A stretch of 31,737 nucleotides of DNA, taken from positions 1 through 31,737 of the IMG/VR virus record IMGVR_UViG_3300006802_000064; one strand, 5' to 3'. Shown piece by piece: positions 15,139 to 30,343 of the stretch. Source of the DNA: a virus. A program made the position numbers and the translations under genes. Under the pieces are notes generated by a model, which was given only the letters and a program-made list of their open reading frames with translations, did not search any database and was not told the DNA's origin. Every line of letters starts with the position of its first letter. Within the stretch, counting starts at the first letter, position 1.

Positions 15139-15146
15139 CAAAGTTA
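15139..15146 (-). promoter_or_regulatory. TAnnTTTG box (TAACTTTG) 4 nt before the 55-residue gene
   Basis: The order TAACTTTG-TAAA-ATG is the same as at the protease gene. The box overlaps the stop codon of the methyltransferase gene. It suggests separate, leaderless expression of the membrane peptide. Confidence 0.5.
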
Positions 15147-16340
15147 GTATAATGTTTTTATAATTCTTTCTCCAACTGCTTTTACTACATCAACTGTAAC
15201 TGCATTTCCTATCATCTTGTATCTTTGAGTATCAGAGTTATCTTCTGCAAGTGTCCAATTATTAGGAAACCCTTGTAATCTTTCACACTCTATTGGTGTT
15301 AATCTTCTAATAGAATTATTTATTGCTACACCATTTGGTTCTGATGACCTAATTGTATAAGCATCTCCTTTTCTCTCTGCTTCACCAAAAGTTTTTGAAC
15401 GATTTAATGCAATTGCTTTTATAAATTGGTCAGTATTGCCACCACCTCCAGAGCTTGAATGTAAAGTATTAGCTTCATCTTTTTCGTGATAGCTTGTTAC
15501 TTTACCTTTATTATCTCTCGTATATCCTAATACTGCTTGATTGCAACTTGTTTCTAATGTTTGTGCTTGTTTTTTACCTACTCTACCTCTAAAAGTTTTA
15601 GAGTTTGGTTGTGATAAATTAATACTGTCTCCAGGTGTTGCAATTTCATATCCTTTTTTTGTTGCTGATTTTATTTTTAATTTTTCTTGTGCATTGAGTT
15701 TACGTTCAATAATGTAACTTCCGTTTCCTCCTGCTTCGTATCTTGTTGTGAGTGTACAGGTGTTTCCTTGTTGTCTTTGTAACTTAATATTCTTGAAACA
15801 ATTTTCTCGGATAGGAAATACTTGTCCTCTACTTTTGTTTGGAGTATATCCGACAAGGTAGATTCTCTCTCTATTTTGGGGTAAAAACCAGCTTGTATTA
15901 AGCAATTGCCATTCAAGTCGATAACCCCCAATGTTGGTAAAGGCTTGGATAATTGCCCAAAAGTCCTCACCATTGTTTGAGGAGAATGTTCCTTTAACAT
16001 TTTCCCAGATAAAAAAATCTGGTCTGAATTCGCTGATGAGATTAATTGCTTCGCTAATAAGGGAACTTCTATCTCCATCAAGACCTTTTCTTTTTCCTGC
16101 AAGGCTAAAATCTTGGCAAGGACTTCCAAAAGTGATAGCATTGATTCTTTTGGGTAATCTATCTCGTTGAATATTTGTAACTGATCCGACATAAGTACTA
16201 TTTTTAAAATTATAATTATAAGTTTTTATTGCATATTTATCTATTTCAGAGTAATAAGAATTAACCTTAAAACCTGCTTGGCTTAAACCTAAATGAAAGC
16301 CACCTATTCCACTAAATAAATCAAGTAAGTTTATTTTCAT
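15144..16340 (-). CDS. dcm: DNA (cytosine-5) methyltransferase
   Basis: The product has 398 residues with all key C5-methyltransferase motifs in order: motif I DLFSGIGGFHLGLSQAGF (7-24) for SAM binding, motif IV GSPCQDFSLAGKRKG with catalytic Cys75, motif VI ENVKG (113-117), motif VIII QNRERIYLVGY (155-165), motif IX RRLTPIECERLQGFP (345-359), and motif X MIGNAVTVDVVKAVGERI (376-393). Between VIII and IX the target-recognition region carries several copies of a short pattern A-x-TL/TI-x-x-S/T...G...[IV] (about 194, 259, 290 and 327). No cognate restriction enzyme is visible next to it, so it most likely protects phage DNA from host restriction. The start overlaps the primase-helicase stop (TAATG). 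Confidence 0.93.
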   Translation of the reverse strand: MKINLLDLFSGIGGFHLGLSQAGFKVNSYYSEIDKYAIKTYNYNFKNSTYVGSVTNIQRDRLPKRINAITFGSPCQDFSLAGKRKGLDGDRSSLISEAINLISEFRPDFFIWENVKGTFSSNNGEDFWAIIQAFTNIGGYRLEWQLLNTSWFLPQNRERIYLVGYTPNKSRGQVFPIRENCFKNIKLQRQQGNTCTLTTRYEAGGNGSYIIERKLNAQEKLKIKSATKKGYEIATPGDSINLSQPNSKTFRGRVGKKQAQTLETSCNQAVLGYTRDNKGKVTSYHEKDEANTLHSSSGGGGNTDQFIKAIALNRSKTFGEAERKGDAYTIRSSEPNGVAINNSIRRLTPIECERLQGFPNNWTLAEDNSDTQRYKMIGNAVTVDVVKAVGERIIKTLY

Positions 16341-23224: not shown

Positions 23225-24535
23225 TTATTCAAATTTATACAAATCAAATGACACTTTATCATCATCTTGATTAGGCAAATGCATTACAATACGATACGAA
23301 TTTTGCTTAACATCATACTCTAATTCATCAATTATAGCACTTACTGGCTCTTGTAATACACTTGTTGTATAATTAACCCATAGCTTGTTATAAAAATAAA
23401 TAGGAATGGTATCATTGTCATCTTTGTAAAATGTTCCCTCATATCTTTTCACTGGATTTCTATAATCATTAATAATCTCTTGAAGCACATTTTTATCAAG
23501 TGTATTTGTATTAATACTTAATGGAAGGTTTTTTCTTGTAAACTCAAAAGGTATTGAAGCAACATCTAATAAATCAAGTTCATTTGATAATATTGTTTCT
23601 TTTTGATCGTACTCACCAGTAACATTATCTTGAACTTCAGTTATTGCACCATCTATTAATTTAAAAGAATTACCTCGCCTTTTTATATGTATTCTTTTTG
23701 TTGCACCTGATTTTTGTGATATTTCAAAACCATCATAAAATGCCCTACCAAATAAAAAACTACTTGTTGTTTGAAATAATTTAATCTCTATATGAGGATT
23801 GGTTTCTGCACCAGTTAGATTTGCCTGTAGTGTAGTTTTATACTTATTCCAAGAATCAAATTGAGTATAATCTATTTTTTTAAAAAATCTATCATCAGTG
23901 AAAGCAATAGGATCACCACCTTCTCCACAATCACTACATTCAGCTATAAATTTATTATCTCCAAAATCATACATCTTGTTTATAGTTCCATCACTTGTAG
24001 AATCAAGTCCTACACTTATATATTGATTCATTATTGGAGAACCCAATCCACCTGCAAACATATAATAGTTCCAAGCAATCTCAATATCACGACCACTTAC
24101 AATAGGTGTATCGCTTAATATGTTTTTTATCATATAAGTTGTTTTTTCAGGTACTTGTGGCATTTGTTCTTGATACAAACAATATAATCCTGAAATTGGG
24201 TTTACATCAAACAATATTTGACTTGGTATTTGAACAGTTGCTTTTGAAGCCGTTATATCCCAATTAAATGTTTTATATCTAAAATTAGGATTTTTATTAA
24301 TCAAAAGCATTTGATTTGTTTTAGTGGTTTTTACTGCATCACGAAGTGGTCTTAAATATTCAACTTGCAAATCTTGATTTATTGGCGATAAATTACTTGG
24401 TATTTGTTTTAAAACATCTTTTGATTGTTTTAATGATGCTTTTGCATTTCCATCTTTATCATATACAAAAAACTCTATGTTTTCTGTTCCATTGTCTTGA
24501 AGCAATCTTGTTTGTTCTGATCTAATAGTTCCCAT
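23225..24535 (-). CDS. Tail protein, tail-tip/baseplate candidate (436 residues)
   Basis: The product begins MGTIRSEQTRLLQDNGTENI and is beta-rich with many aromatic residues; there is no signal peptide or membrane segment. Segments such as SGLYCLYQEQMPQVPEKTTY, NYYMFAGGLGSPIMNQYISV, DFGDNKFIAECSDCGEGGDP and ETILSNELDLLDVASIPFEF have no known domain that I can name. It follows the 1002-residue tail protein and glycosyltransferase genes, so a tail-tip, fibre-attachment or baseplate role is likely. A TAAATTTG box lies 4 nt before its ATG, overlapping the stop of the glycosyltransferase gene. It ends the tail module. Confidence 0.65.
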   Translation of the reverse strand: MGTIRSEQTRLLQDNGTENIEFFVYDKDGNAKASLKQSKDVLKQIPSNLSPINQDLQVEYLRPLRDAVKTTKTNQMLLINKNPNFRYKTFNWDITASKATVQIPSQILFDVNPISGLYCLYQEQMPQVPEKTTYMIKNILSDTPIVSGRDIEIAWNYYMFAGGLGSPIMNQYISVGLDSTSDGTINKMYDFGDNKFIAECSDCGEGGDPIAFTDDRFFKKIDYTQFDSWNKYKTTLQANLTGAETNPHIEIKLFQTTSSFLFGRAFYDGFEISQKSGATKRIHIKRRGNSFKLIDGAITEVQDNVTGEYDQKETILSNELDLLDVASIPFEFTRKNLPLSINTNTLDKNVLQEIINDYRNPVKRYEGTFYKDDNDTIPIYFYNKLWVNYTTSVLQEPVSAIIDELEYDVKQNSYRIVMHLPNQDDDKVSFDLYKFE

Positions 24536-24539
24536 ATTA

Positions 24540-24547
24540 CAAATTTA
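24540..24547 (-). promoter_or_regulatory. TAnnTTTG box (TAAATTTG) 4 nt before the 436-residue tail gene
   Basis: The order TAAATTTG-TAAT-ATG repeats the spacing seen at four other genes. It overlaps the glycosyltransferase stop codon, suggesting an internal leaderless promoter for the tail-tip gene. Confidence 0.45.
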
Positions 24548-25453
24548 CAATATTTGTTTCACTAACTCATAGTATTTATATGAATCAAGGTTTGGGTTTA
24601 TTTCTAAATCTTTTGGTGGTTTTTTACCTAAAAACATAGCCTTATGAAATTCACCATTTTTATTATTATTAACTCCTGCATTATGAAAGATTGCTTTCTT
24701 TCCCCAATCATTTACATTGTTTGTTGCCCAAGTAAAATCAAGCTCATCTATAATTTGTGTTTTGCGATTTCGTTTCCAAAGATTCCAAAGTACTGCCCAC
24801 ATATCAGCACACCAAATTTGAAGTCCGTGATAGCTTTCATTTTCAGCTTTTTTCTTTGCATTTAATTTTATAACTTCTGTGAATAAGTTTTCGCAATCTA
24901 TTTCAACTTCTTCCCAAAATTTATAGTCAATATTTTTAAGTAGATATTGACAACCACCAGAATTGTCTTGATTTTGTTTTACTATTTCTTTATCAATATT
25001 AGCTACATCACACATTAAATCAAGCATATCTTCTCCTTTAGAAACAATATAATCGTGTCCAATATAGCTTATTGTATCACTTAAATAACAAGTTGGATTG
25101 CAACCACATAAGTATTTATCTAACTCCAAAGGTTTTGTAAGTGCAATATCGCAATCGTGATATAAAAACGTTCCTTTATAAAGTTCAGGATATTTAGCAA
25201 AATGTTTTTTTAGAATATGAGGTCTTACACTTGATATATATTTTATAGGGTTTCTTGTATCTAAATAAAAGTAAAAATTAACTTTAGGATATTTTTCAAG
25301 AAGATAATAAAAAGGCATTTCTTCATCAGCTTTGTCGGCAAATACAATATCTATTTGTTCAGCTTTTATGCCATTATTTAAGAAGCTATGAATCATTACA
25401 TCAACTTGCCAAGAAAAGTAAATTGTAGATGGCTGACAACAAATGTATCTCAT
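24545..25453 (-). CDS. GT-A-like glycosyltransferase
   Basis: The product has 302 residues. It looks like a GT-A fold glycosyltransferase: an N-terminal nucleotide-sugar strand region (IDIVFADKADEEMPFYYLLE), a DxD-type motif in GTFLYHDCDIALTKPLELDK (Asp-Cys-Asp at 100-102) that would bind the metal and sugar-nucleotide, and late aromatic motifs (YHGLQIWCADMWAVLW; KKAIFHNAGV, with His257) typical of the acceptor/active site of GT8-type enzymes. A phage glycosyltransferase between two tail genes is unusual; it could decorate tail proteins or change host surface sugars. Start and stop are tight against neighbours (1 nt after the 1002-residue gene). The exact sugar cannot be told. Confidence 0.72.
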   Translation of the reverse strand: MRYICCQPSTIYFSWQVDVMIHSFLNNGIKAEQIDIVFADKADEEMPFYYLLEKYPKVNFYFYLDTRNPIKYISSVRPHILKKHFAKYPELYKGTFLYHDCDIALTKPLELDKYLCGCNPTCYLSDTISYIGHDYIVSKGEDMLDLMCDVANIDKEIVKQNQDNSGGCQYLLKNIDYKFWEEVEIDCENLFTEVIKLNAKKKAENESYHGLQIWCADMWAVLWNLWKRNRKTQIIDELDFTWATNNVNDWGKKAIFHNAGVNNNKNGEFHKAMFLGKKPPKDLEINPNLDSYKYYELVKQIL

Positions 25454-25454
25454 A

Positions 25455-28400
25455 TTAAGGACAAGCAGGACAAGTAGCAGTTGATAATGTTACACCATTC
25501 CAAAAATATAAATCTCCAACATAAATATAATTTCCTGCTGGAAGAACAGTAGTACAAGTTGAATTGGTATAAACTACACTTGCAGATGTAATTGAAGTTG
25601 AGTTAATATATATAGTAATTGACTTTGATCCACAACAAGCATTTAAAGCAATTGTAGTAACTGCTGCTTGTATTGCAGTACAAGGTGCTTCAGTAGTTGT
25701 TGGTGCTTGTGTTGTAGTTGTAGATACATAATTTTGACAAGCAGTACAATCGCTAAAATCTAAAAATAAATCTACATCACCACTTGTACCTGCACCCCCA
25801 TCTTGAAGTGAAGCATAACAAATAATTCCATCTGATATTACTGCAGGGAAACTATTTGTTTGATTTGATACTTCTATAATACTATCATCAGCACTACAAT
25901 TAGATTGTAAACTTTGATATATTCTATAAAATATACTTGGTTGAGTTGTAGTGGTTGTTGTTGGAACTTGTGTAGTTGTAGATATTCCTAAACAATCATC
26001 ACAACTTACAAACCCAGTTGAGAATTTGCTTGTAGGGAAACAACCTAAATTAAATTCATCATCACTTTGTGCATTTGAGGTTCTATCTATAAATGACCAA
26101 CAATCACCAGTAGATATTTGTTTTACAAATTGAGGGAAATTATCTACATTGTTTCCAAGTACTTCTATCCTATCATCACCACATTTTAAATATCTTGCTC
26201 TAAATGTCATTGTTGGACATTGCTCTGTTGGTGTTGGCGGCTCTGTAGAACAAAGTGTGTTTATTGTTATTGCAGATAAATCATCTGGAGTTGTTATTTC
26301 TTCAAGAATTGTAAAACAATCTGATGTTTGAACATTTAAAACAACCCTATCACCAACACTAAAACTTGCATTAAAATCAACTCTTAATTCATCTAATGAA
26401 TTATCTTTTTGAACTAAAAATCCATCAGGTGTAACAACATCAGTTTCACAAGCAGGGCAACTTGCAGTATTTTGTAAATTAGTTCCATTAAATTCTCTGT
26501 AATTAACTAAATCTTCTGACAAGAATTGAGCAGGAAGTAAATTCGTACAATTACTATTTGAATAAACTTTTGTTGTATTGGTGTTATCTGTAAATGATTC
26601 TCCATTAATATATGCAGTCCTTGATGTTGGAGTTTCACAACATAGATTAAAAGCAGTATCACTTCTATATAAAATTATTTCTTTACAAGTTACTGCTTGT
26701 GTTGTTGTCGGTTCAGTTGTATCATCTACACAAGCACCTGCAATAGTTGGAAGTCCACTTAAACTTGCTAAATATTGCCCAACCATTATTGTATAACAAT
26801 CAGAAGAACTTGAAGATGAAGATAAATAAACATTATCACCCCTTGAATCTGAAGTATAAGGTACACTTTGTGTTGATGAATCACTTTGTTTTCTTAATTG
26901 CCAAGCATTCCAAGTGTATTGAGTTATTGTAGAACCAATTGCTTCACCAGTTGTATTTACTGCAAATGGTGTAATAAAATATGGTGTACCTGCAGTCAAT
27001 GTTAAAGTAAAAGGCGATTGATCTGTGTTACCAGTAAACCCAAATGCAGTTGATTGACTTTGACCTGTTGCAATTACATATCTTGTATTGCTTGTATAGT
27101 TATTTCCATTTGTACCAAAGTAAAAACCATATTCTGTAACATTACTTGAACCTACATCATCTACTTGACCTTTAATTTCCATTGCAATATTTGTTACATT
27201 ATAAGGATTACAAGGAAGTGTTGTAAGTGTTGGTGCTTCATTTTCAGCTTCAGTAACAGTTGTGGCACCTGGAAAATAAGAAATAGTAGCACCTCTACCT
27301 TCTATTAATGAATTGTTCTTTGCATAAGCTGCTATGAAATATATTTGACCTGTAACAAGATTCGTTTGTACTGATGTAAAACTTGCAGTAGTATCACTTG
27401 AAACTACTTTAGGATTTGCTAATATATTTACATTAGTTCCAAAATAAAAACCTCTTTCAATTATTGCAAGACCTTTATCATCTGTAATCGTGCCATTTAA
27501 TGTTGCACCAGTATCACTTGTGCTTGTAAGTGCATCAGTTGTTACAATAGGATTGTTTTGTGTTAAATCTTGGTCATCAGCACTTGTTCCCTCATTACCT
27601 GTTTGTGTTCCTGAAATTGCATTATCATAGTAATTACTATTTGATACAACATACCAAGAAGCATTTGCTTGATATACTCTTGAATTTGTAATTCTTAAAA
27701 GATTCTCTAAAACTTCTTTCGCTGACTTTTTCGCAAATCCATTGAAAAGTGCAAACTCATTTATTAATATATCTTGAAACAAATTATTATTAGAATTTAC
27801 AACTTGACCTTGTACTGTTCTACGAATATTATTTTGAACATATATATCAAATTCTAAACCTGTATATGATAAAATTCTATGAATATAATACCAAGCTGAA
27901 TCATTATTAGTTTGCTCACCTGCAGCAACTTTTATTGTACCATCTGCATTAGTATTTATCTTACCATCAGGCACTAAATAAGCATCTAATGCACCCAAAT
28001 TATCTATTGCCCTTAAACTAATATCATAAGGATTAGATTGTATAGCTTCGGTAAAAGTATCTGAAACTAAAAAACCCTCCCAATAAACTTGGAACTCTGT
28101 CGCTGCTGCCCAATTATAATCTGTCGCTTCCCAATTTGTATCAGCAAGTTCCCAAAGAGGTGAATTAACATCAGCTTGTGGATCATCTACACCTACATTA
28201 ACTCTAATCTTATATTCTCTTTCATCAAAGTTTGTAAACTCATCATAAGAAATCGTATCAGTAGTTTTAATATTTAAGATACAAGATGAACCGATTATTG
28301 GATTATAGAAGTCATCATCATTGGTGTATTTAATAATTACTGGATTGTCAGTACCTATAATAGAATTAACATCACCAGTGTAATCTTTTTTAAGTATTTG

Positions 28401-28463
28401 AACACTTCTTGCATTACCCTTGATGTCTGAAAAATCAAGTTCATATTTTACACCGTATGCCAT
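25455..28463 (-). CDS. Large tail protein with FnIII-like, Cys-rich and Thr-rich parts (1002 residues)
   Basis: Residues 1-280 form a beta-rich tail-tip-like region (MAYGVKYELDFSDIKGNARS; GFLVSDTFTEAIQSNPYDIS). Two Ig/FnIII-like domains follow, at about 305-400 (TSTSDTGATLNGTITDDKGL; GFYFGTN) and 408-515 (GFYFGTN again). Then a poly-Ser tract (548-554) and four cysteine-rich repeats of two types: A at about 608-672 and 928-1001 (CC...CPAC ends), B at about 750-825 and 843-910. They are joined by Thr-rich mucin-like linkers (TTTQVPTTTTTTQP at 829-842; STTTTQAPTTTEAP at 914-927). A central tail fibre/tip is likely, with the C-terminal repeats as adhesive domains. Cysteines suggest disulfides or metals. 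A glycosyltransferase gene follows at 1 nt. Confidence 0.75.
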   Translation of the reverse strand: MAYGVKYELDFSDIKGNARSVQILKKDYTGDVNSIIGTDNPVIIKYTNDDDFYNPIIGSSCILNIKTTDTISYDEFTNFDEREYKIRVNVGVDDPQADVNSPLWELADTNWEATDYNWAAATEFQVYWEGFLVSDTFTEAIQSNPYDISLRAIDNLGALDAYLVPDGKINTNADGTIKVAAGEQTNNDSAWYYIHRILSYTGLEFDIYVQNNIRRTVQGQVVNSNNNLFQDILINEFALFNGFAKKSAKEVLENLLRITNSRVYQANASWYVVSNSNYYDNAISGTQTGNEGTSADDQDLTQNNPIVTTDALTSTSDTGATLNGTITDDKGLAIIERGFYFGTNVNILANPKVVSSDTTASFTSVQTNLVTGQIYFIAAYAKNNSLIEGRGATISYFPGATTVTEAENEAPTLTTLPCNPYNVTNIAMEIKGQVDDVGSSNVTEYGFYFGTNGNNYTSNTRYVIATGQSQSTAFGFTGNTDQSPFTLTLTAGTPYFITPFAVNTTGEAIGSTITQYTWNAWQLRKQSDSSTQSVPYTSDSRGDNVYLSSSSSSSDCYTIMVGQYLASLSGLPTIAGACVDDTTEPTTTQAVTCKEIILYRSDTAFNLCCETPTSRTAYINGESFTDNTNTTKVYSNSNCTNLLPAQFLSEDLVNYREFNGTNLQNTASCPACETDVVTPDGFLVQKDNSLDELRVDFNASFSVGDRVVLNVQTSDCFTILEEITTPDDLSAITINTLCSTEPPTPTEQCPTMTFRARYLKCGDDRIEVLGNNVDNFPQFVKQISTGDCWSFIDRTSNAQSDDEFNLGCFPTSKFSTGFVSCDDCLGISTTTQVPTTTTTTQPSIFYRIYQSLQSNCSADDSIIEVSNQTNSFPAVISDGIICYASLQDGGAGTSGDVDLFLDFSDCTACQNYVSTTTTQAPTTTEAPCTAIQAAVTTIALNACCGSKSITIYINSTSITSASVVYTNSTCTTVLPAGNYIYVGDLYFWNGVTLSTATCPACP

Positions 28464-30343
28464 TATTTAAATCTATTTCTATTTCTTTCTGCTCTTTGAA
28501 GTGCCACTACTAAATCTTGACCTCTTAATACAAACTCACCTTGTGTAACACCACCATCAATCATACTTTTTAATTTACTTAAAGGTGCAACTACTTCTGG
28601 GTTTGATCTTGCACCAGGATATTCTCCAATAAGAGCATTTGTTGGTCCTGATACAATACCACCTTTTGCAAATTCTTGAAAGCCTTCTGATCTTACTCTA
28701 TTTGCTATTCCTTTTATAACACCACCTAATGCTACTGCTGCTAAACCTGCTGCAGCACCTGCAATAGGAATTGCGAATGTTTTAGCTAAATTAGAAGCAG
28801 CTATTGCAGCTAATCCCATTTGTATAATTAAATCACCAATAACATCTAACATTGATGCACCAAAACCTCTAAAACTGCCATCACTTTTGCTAAATGATTC
28901 AGATATACTATTTGCAAAACCTTGTATAAATGGTTGAATAATATTCATACTATCTACCATCATAGTAGCAGAATCTTTAAATTTTTTAGGCACTTCTGTT
29001 AAAACTTGACTTGCTTCAATAGCAGAATCTTTCATTTTTATATAACCAAGTGAAATAGTATTTAAAGCAGTTACTTGTTTTCTTGAATTAGTTTCTATTT
29101 CACCTGTAGTTTTAGATGAAATACCCGGGAATAATATGGCACTTAAATCTCTTGTTTGTCCTGGCAGTAAAGGACCGACACCTGTAAATGCACCAGAAGT
29201 TAAACCGTTAATTGTAGTTTGTAAATTACCTAATTCTCTATTAGTATCTTTAATGTTTTGTTGTATTTTAGGACCAAACATTTGTTCCCCATATCTTCCA
29301 AGTCCTGAAAAAGGTGATTCTAAAAATGCTTTAGTCAAGCCAACAAGTGCAGTAGTTGCTGCAATAATATATCCAGGTAAACCTCTAAAAAATTTGATTA
29401 CTGGTTTTAAAAATTTACCAATACTCATTAATGAAGCTGTTAATGAACCTAATATTAAAAGCAACGGTCCAAGTGCAGCGGTAATAAATCCTGTGTTTAA
29501 AATTAATTTTTGAGATTCAGTATCTAAATTTTTAAAGTTTGTTGTTAATTCACCAATCTTTGCAGATAAAGCAGGAATTCCCTCTTTTAAATTCATAGCA
29601 TCAGCTATCTCTTGACCAAGTTCTGCAAGTGCAATATTTACATTATCTTTTAAGGTTGAAAATAAACCATTAAGTGTTTGACTTAATGTTTCCATTCCTC
29701 CATCAAACTTACCACCCTCACTTGTAGCATCTCTAAAGGCTTGATTTAATATATCAAAGGTTATCTTACCCTCTGAAGCCATATCCATTATCTCACCTCT
29801 TGCAACTCCCATTGATTCAGCAAGTATATCAAGTATAGGCACCCCATTATTTATAAATTGACGGAGATCTCTCGTCATCACACGGCCCTCTGCAGCAGCT
29901 TGTCCAAATGCAATTCCAATGCTTTGTAAATCACCACCAACAATTCCTGAAATATCACCAAGCATAGATAATGAATCAAATGCTTCATTAGCATTTAAAC
30001 CAAATCCCATAAGGGTATTATTTACCTTAACTAACTCATCTAATTGAAATGGAGTTTTAGCACTAAATTGTACTAATTTCTCAAATGCCTCTGCACCTGC
30101 TTCAGCAGATCCTGTTAAAGTATTTAAAGTGGTTTGTAATCTTTCAAAATTAGCAGCTTGTTTAACGGCTAATCCACCAAGAGCAGCTAAAGGTAGTGAT
30201 AATCTTGTAGATAGCATTCGACCAGTTTTGGTCATTTGTGAACTAAACTTTTTTAACTTACCCTCTGAAACACCAATAGCACTATTGAACTTTGTGTTGT
30301 TTGCAATAAAATCAAATCGTAAATTATATCTTTGGTCTGCCAT
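28463..30343 (-). CDS. Tape measure protein
   Basis: The product has 626 residues with the TMP family pattern: RLQTTLNTLTGSAEAGAEAF, KTPFQLDELVKVNNTLMGFG, DISGIVGGDLQSIGIAFGQA, AEGRVMTRDLRQFINNGVPI, and a FDILNQAFRDATSEGGKFDG block (TMP_3, PF20155-like). Hydrophobic segments at about 280-345 and 520-560 are typical of the parts that contact the host membrane in DNA injection. Length suggests a tail near 90-95 nm if one residue spans about 0.15 nm. It follows the G/GT gene pair, and a TATTTTTG box lies 4 nt before the ATG, suggesting separate expression of the TMP. Confidence 0.93.
   Translation of the reverse strand: MADQRYNLRFDFIANNTKFNSAIGVSEGKLKKFSSQMTKTGRMLSTRLSLPLAALGGLAVKQAANFERLQTTLNTLTGSAEAGAEAFEKLVQFSAKTPFQLDELVKVNNTLMGFGLNANEAFDSLSMLGDISGIVGGDLQSIGIAFGQAAAEGRVMTRDLRQFINNGVPILDILAESMGVARGEIMDMASEGKITFDILNQAFRDATSEGGKFDGGMETLSQTLNGLFSTLKDNVNIALAELGQEIADAMNLKEGIPALSAKIGELTTNFKNLDTESQKLILNTGFITAALGPLLLILGSLTASLMSIGKFLKPVIKFFRGLPGYIIAATTALVGLTKAFLESPFSGLGRYGEQMFGPKIQQNIKDTNRELGNLQTTINGLTSGAFTGVGPLLPGQTRDLSAILFPGISSKTTGEIETNSRKQVTALNTISLGYIKMKDSAIEASQVLTEVPKKFKDSATMMVDSMNIIQPFIQGFANSISESFSKSDGSFRGFGASMLDVIGDLIIQMGLAAIAASNLAKTFAIPIAGAAAGLAAVALGGVIKGIANRVRSEGFQEFAKGGIVSGPTNALIGEYPGARSNPEVVAPLSKLKSMIDGGVTQGEFVLRGQDLVVALQRAERNRNRFK

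Follow-up and report, generated by a model that had tools for sequence, protein, structure and literature searches.

The question raised by the viral DNA examined here, positions 1 to 31,737 of the IMG/VR record IMGVR_UViG_3300006802_000064 (31,737 nucleotides, hereafter called the window), is whether a phage glycosylates its own tail protein. A putative glycosyltransferase gene (GT) of the PHROGs family phrog_4417 lies a single base downstream of the gene for a 1002-amino-acid tail protein, hereafter called TP, with threonine-rich (Thr-rich) linkers. Comparison with related loci strongly supports this: with a probability that we put at about 0.86, GT would glycosylate Thr residues of the tract, acting in the cytoplasm either ahead of or in the course of virion assembly. 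The features on which the argument turns are the following, with positions in the window; pLDDT is the AlphaFold2 confidence score, ORF stands for open reading frame and aa for amino acids.

24545..25453, minus strand: GT, predicted GT-A glycosyltransferase, phrog_4417 family, 302 aa (ORF, profile match, AlphaFold2, Foldseek)
25148..25156, minus strand: DCD (DxD) motif, GT residues 100-102, presumed metal/nucleotide-sugar site by comparison with GT-A enzymes
25454..25454, no strand: single base between the TP stop and the GT start
25455..28463, minus strand: TP, tail protein of 1002 aa, proposed acceptor (ORF, directly after the tape-measure gene)
25677..25733, minus strand: Thr-rich linker 4 of TP, aa 911-929, containing STTTTQAPTTTEAP, mostly pLDDT < 50
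25923..25991, minus strand: Thr-rich linker 3 of TP with a run of six Thr, aa 825-847, containing STTTQVPTTTTTTQPS, pLDDT < 50
26202..26267, minus strand: Thr/Pro-rich linker 2 of TP, aa 733-754, containing STEPPTPTEQ, partly pLDDT < 50
26685..26723, minus strand: Thr-rich linker 1 of TP, aa 581-593, DTTEPTTTQAVTC, pLDDT < 50
26802..26822, minus strand: tract of seven Ser in TP, aa 548-554

Relatives of GT were gathered from viral contigs, isolated phages and bacterial genomes. The evidence is one of genomic association, many of the relative loci are incomplete, and representatives and orthologue tests were used because relatedness inflates raw counts. Linkage was assessed in 66 non-redundant representative loci, none of them fetched by a Thr pattern, and same-strand ORF starts from these loci served as control. 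A Thr tract ended at most 300 nt upstream of the GT start in 38 of the 66 representatives, against 52 of 571 control starts, which corresponds to 5.2 expected among 66 loci; none of 20,000 draws reached 38. In the Bacillota sets, GT was accompanied by a Thr tract in 70/71 and 73/80 cases.

The proteins encoded upstream of GT differ between groups. Within the group to which the window belongs, GT is preceded by a homologue of TP that has the same linkers, and in close relatives the two genes are separated by -49 to +9 nt. In groups more remote from the window, the protein encoded upstream bears no relation to TP, but long Thr tracts are frequent in it. The carriers of these tracts are tail adhesins in Bacteroidota-type phages, and in Bacillota phages the tracts are C-terminal tags on major capsid and tail proteins. 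In phages of Lactococcus, Enterococcus, Staphylococcus and Lactobacillus the upstream gene typically codes for a major capsid, a major tail or a small Thr-rich protein, the tags including the C-terminal ends GVTTTTTTTTTTHHD in phage 1706 and TTTTTTKPTTTTTTTQA in Enterococcus 4995_1, and several of these phages have two Thr-tagged structural proteins beside one GT in the stretch read. The 55 carriers form 22 sequence clusters, cover at least six major head and seven major tail PHROGs and have little in common beyond the Thr tract. In the GT tree, for which carrier labels were partly assigned by hand, locus L084 with a tail carrier is sister to L090 with a capsid carrier (support 99/82), and L188 (capsid) is sister to L189 (tail; 100/89). 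The linkage of GT to Thr tracts is independent of carrier homology, and the enzyme, rather than being spread widely apart from Thr-rich proteins, which would have refuted the sequence-only reading, tracks the tracts across unrelated carriers.

Three carrier families were compared with and without GT. Complete copies of the window-type TP that are followed by GT have about 1000 aa and contain the tracts, whereas more distant copies without GT have 690-800 aa and no tracts, a contrast that is probably due to one evolutionary event. The Lactococcus-type capsid protein ends in GAPTTTTTTQATTTTTSHA or similar when GT is present and in KTTTSTAV, TAGK etc. when it is absent, and identity to the same query exceeds 90 % in most of the copies without GT. 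With a looser script criterion three copies in this set were scored as tagged without GT; L678 ends in KTTTTTAG, and in L671 and L679 the Thr run is solely in another frame. The Bacillus-type major tail protein was tagged in 9 of 9 copies with GT and untagged in 25 of 25 without it (Fisher P 1.9e-8). The Thr tag is the consistent C-terminal difference between capsid and tail-tube orthologues with and without GT. Across the three families the presence of the tract agrees almost perfectly with that of GT. Tag and enzyme act as a single unit, and their joint gain and loss is the strongest evidence obtained. The linkage, the unrelated carriers and the co-gain or co-loss in three families together support what the sequence-only reading had proposed, that the phage glycosylates its own adhesin.

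The enzyme is matched by the phrog_4417 profile over its full length (residues 1-301, E 1.1e-59). This family carries no assigned function in PHROGs, and some phage records name its members 'prophage pi2 protein 34'. The AlphaFold2 model, made with 62 relatives, had a pLDDT of 96 and a predicted TM-score (pTM) of 0.92, and Foldseek matched the model to GT-A enzymes, the best being WbbM (6u4b, E 1.6e-7), with UGGT (GT24), GT8 members, LgtC, XXYLT1 and ABO-type GT6 enzymes among the others. TM-scores near 0.5 indicate that the fold is shared, not the family. Searching Pfam, NCBIfam and PDB with the enzyme sequence gave no significant match; the profile of HPAT (hydroxyproline O-arabinosyltransferase, PF23452) matched one of 63 GT members at E 0.0058, which is not significant over 63 trials and is at most a lead. 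Residues D100 and D102 are invariant in an alignment of 31 rows and in one of 63 diverse relatives. The predicted fold is thus GT-A with a DxD motif, in agreement with the sequence-only reading of a GT-A-like enzyme with a DCD motif, and catalysis, Thr as the acceptor residue and a nucleotide sugar as the donor may be inferred. GT contains no hydrophobic or membrane segment (maximum 19-residue hydropathy 0.72).

Thr makes up 13.2 % of the residues of TP. When the TP sequence was shuffled 2000 times, a run of six Thr arose 7 times, and T/S/P-rich segments as numerous as those of TP arose 12 times. Among the 38 window ORFs examined, TP is the sole one with a real Thr tract, with up to 9 Thr per 12 residues compared with 6 in the next-highest ORF. 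The two genes had been described correctly as adjacent and 1 nt apart (25454), and the Thr-rich linkers and the poly-Ser tract (seven Ser from aa 548) were also confirmed, whereas the count of two linkers was too low, TP having four. The full-length AlphaFold2 model of TP is of low confidence (pLDDT 70, pTM 0.33), with only the FnIII-like domains nameable, and the Thr linkers lie largely in parts with pLDDT < 50 (581-591, 744-750, 830-842 and 850-925). The remaining parts of TP and the genes on either side of the pair are as follows.

27564..28463, minus strand: N-terminal region of TP, aa 1-300, conserved in orthologues without GT
26859..27551, minus strand: tandem FnIII-like domains of TP, approximately aa 305-535, with Foldseek matches to FnIII tandems
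28463..30343, minus strand: tape measure protein, context (PF20155, E 1.6e-34)
23225..24535, minus strand: 436-aa tail-region gene downstream of GT, context, kept beside GT in close relatives

The position after the tape-measure gene and the FnIII-like middle fit a tail-tip adhesin, as which TP may be regarded. A search with TP against isolated phages gave no match, and the 436-aa downstream gene had no significant family match in Pfam and PHROGs profile searches. Cys is abundant in the C-terminal half of TP (25455-26800), where small beta modules separate the Thr linkers, and ends resembling those of TP ('YTNSxCT...', '...CP') recur in other carriers of Thr tracts.

The association was also sampled in the reverse direction, from the tract to the enzyme. 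GT was present in 12 of 120 viral loci sampled with a Thr10 DNA pattern and in none of 120 sampled with a Ser10 pattern (P 3.7e-4). Taken together with the linkage counts, this means that the enzyme is usually accompanied by a tract and that many tracts exist without the enzyme. Among 33 genes that follow Thr tracts without phrog_4417, two were of GT2 type, the remaining 31 being judged by eye. These two GT2-type enzymes are encoded directly after the Thr-tract genes (L286 4243-5067 and L297 3895-4731) and possibly represent an independent second system.

Several observations weigh against glycosylation of the tracts by GT. The 108 of 120 Thr10 viral loci that lacked GT in the stretch read show that a tract alone does not imply the enzyme. 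Conversely, 10 of 79 representatives had no strict Thr tract in the locus, several of them having weaker ones, and in the window itself the strict Thr tract ends 485 nt upstream of GT and is not at the C-terminus. The Thr-rich linkers could also be plain spacers.

Phage glycosyltransferases that alter the host O-antigen (Gtr systems) are well known, and GT might similarly modify a host surface polysaccharide, in seroconversion or superinfection exclusion, with its place among the tail genes a matter of operon convenience. The sequence-only reading had kept this alternative, which fits poorly and which we consider improbable: Gtr-type enzymes are membrane glycosyltransferases whereas GT lacks a hydrophobic segment, its gene is in the structural region, no gtrA/gtrB-like neighbours were seen in the loci read, GT pairs with Thr tracts on unrelated carriers, and the cellular branch of the family, described below, adjoins genes for secreted peptides. 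It is similarly unlikely that GT acts on the virion protein at another site or residue, the Thr tracts being flexible spacers that aid access or that arose alongside. The carriers do have other Ser and Thr residues, and TP has six D[ST][AILVMT] motifs as well as the tract of seven Ser, but the carriers have little besides the tract in common and it is the Thr tag that differs consistently at the C-terminus between capsid and tail-tube orthologues with and without GT. That the tracts are no more than low-complexity linkers produced by slippage of repeats, associated with GT through shared phage ancestry, is largely refuted and very improbable, in spite of the common occurrence of Thr10 tracts in viral contigs without GT (108/120), by the unrelated carriers in two phyla, the tag swaps between near-identical orthologues, the absence of GT from the Ser-tract control and the mixed Thr codons of the tracts (identical neighbours 197/749, 236.6 expected), which indicate that the peptide is selected or kept and that the DNA is not a slipping microsatellite.

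The general O-glycosylation of Bacteroidota, to which the sequence-only reading had also pointed, is periplasmic, so virion proteins assembled in the cytoplasm would be out of its reach and its relevance is doubtful. Six D(S/T)(A/I/L/V/M/T) sequons are present in TP, one only (aa 581) in a Thr linker. The phage's own GT appears the better candidate for modifying TP.

On this reading GT would be a soluble GT-A enzyme that acts in the infected cell and O-glycosylates TP, the product of the gene immediately before its own, at the Thr tracts. The tracts would be an acceptor tag specified by the carrier gene itself, and together with the enzyme they would form a portable module that occurs in many phages, on capsid, tail-tube and adhesin proteins. 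The glycans may stiffen the linkers or protect them from proteases, shield the protein from antibodies or other molecules, or tune adhesion; for the window phage, stiffening and shielding of the adhesin's linkers is a tentative guess.

In Bacteroidota-type phages GT is often followed by another enzyme gene, overlapping by a few bases. This second gene was GT29 sialyltransferase-like in L034 (Pfam) and, by similarity, in L038, L052 and L079; GT2 in L040 and L080 and more weakly in L050; GT6-like in L061 (Pfam); GT32-like in L272; and an FkbM methyltransferase in L165. A radical SAM gene overlaps the end of GT in the viral contigs L028, L046 and L057 and, by similarity, in L044. These arrangements suggest that the phrog_4417 enzyme adds the first sugar and that second transferases extend it variously in the relatives that have them. 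In the window no recognised second sugar enzyme is directly downstream of GT, the next gene being the 436-aa tail-region gene, and short glycans of one or a few sugars would be expected on the TP linkers.

A cellular branch of the family was found in Sphingobacteriaceae. In Sphingobacterium bovisgrunnientis (L169, 2798-10701) a longer GT homologue of 526 aa follows the gene of an 82-aa peptide with a double-glycine leader and a Cys-rich core beginning VSWTTTTTTSSVPV; a C39-peptidase/VKOR/thioredoxin gene lies before these two genes and GT2 genes lie after them. A homologue was present in 21 of 301 sampled genomes of the same bacterial family, and several of the 21 adjoin TIGR04149-like double-glycine peptides, some with cores that start Thr-rich; the TIGR04149 profile scores of these peptides (E 1.3e-5 to 1e-3) are at or just below the cut-off. 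Further clusters with such leader peptides and a long phrog_4417-like enzyme occur in L643 (6653-8580) and L642 (5138-8541). The clusters likely represent a class of glycosylated peptides, and in some of the loci, not all, the branch presents the same acceptor feature outside a virion. Among 300 genomes sampled from the phylum to which L199 belongs, the homologue was found only in the match already known, which indicates that the enzyme is sparse in that phylum.

Glycocins and other glycosylated double-glycine-leader peptides resemble this cellular branch, in which a Cys-rich precursor with such a leader likewise adjoins C39 peptidase, VKOR/thioredoxin and GT2 genes. The known glycocin synthases are GT2-type and belong to a family other than phrog_4417. 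The GT8, GT24 and GT6 enzymes (LgtC, UGGT, XXYLT1, ABO transferases) have the GT-A fold and DxD motif in common with GT, with TM-scores of about 0.4-0.5, 5-16 % identity and no family match at the sequence level. Eukaryotic mucin-type domains, the substrates of GT27, are Thr/Ser/Pro-rich acceptor stretches like the phage tracts, which often have TTTTAAP-like units; GT27 gave no match to the phage GT, an enzyme of a bacterial cell and not Golgi-resident.

The closest parallel in kind is offered by mycobacteriophages, for which the passages of PMC12619734 and PMC12363180 that quote Freeman et al. (2023) describe glycans at the C-termini of capsid and tail-tube proteins and a shielding effect. 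In Che8, Corndog and Myrna, according to the same passages, phage-encoded glycosyltransferases act on capsid and tail-tube subunits; here the GT gene shows a strong genomic pairing with virion genes. Che8 gp108-110 are of GT2/GT2/GT25 type and encoded at the far end of the genome, whereas the phrog_4417 GT adjoins the structural gene, and in Che8 no Thr tract is present at the ends of the capsid and tail proteins. Homology of GT to gp108-110 was rejected, no significant score being obtained with filters off. With unrelated enzymes and proteins without Thr tracts, the two are alike in kind but not the same system. No paper tying Thr tracts to phage glycosylation was found in the searches made of open-access texts.

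More broadly, we lean, with some reserve, towards the view that poly-Thr is a glycosylation tag encoded in the sequence and served by its own writer, one enzyme family recognizing Thr tracts on whatever protein has them, that Bacillota and Bacteroidota phages have attached this pair of parts to a dozen or more unrelated virion proteins, that bacteria use the same family on secreted double-glycine-leader peptides, and that swappable second transferases build different glycans. If true, a widespread unannotated phage family would gain a function, virion glycosylation would be a modular, common trait and not a peculiarity of mycobacteriophages, and glycosylated virions could be predicted from genomes, the acceptor being readable from the sequence. 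The module is present in phages of dairy bacteria (Lactococcus, for instance phage CHPC836) and hence directly testable, with near-identical capsid pairs with and without tag and enzyme as natural controls.

Some tags are placed unusually. In Enterococcus VPE25, a Listeria fleischmannii prophage and a Lactococcus-type locus (L088 4724-4760, L172 3028-3080 and L328 3594-3640) the gene in the capsid position stops at (C)AAAG or (C)AAAA followed directly by TAA, and a Thr tag can be read past this stop in the -1 frame, an arrangement that resembles a programmed -1 frameshift by which a fraction of the capsid subunits would be tagged. In bIL285 (L087 4944-4985) NDKTTTTTTRHD continues in frame after the TAA of the capsid gene; this tag beyond the stop codon may reflect read-through or decay, and another structural gene of this phage still has the end TTTTTTTTTRHD. 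The window also contains, in the phage replication region, a C5-cytosine DNA methylase gene (15144-16340).

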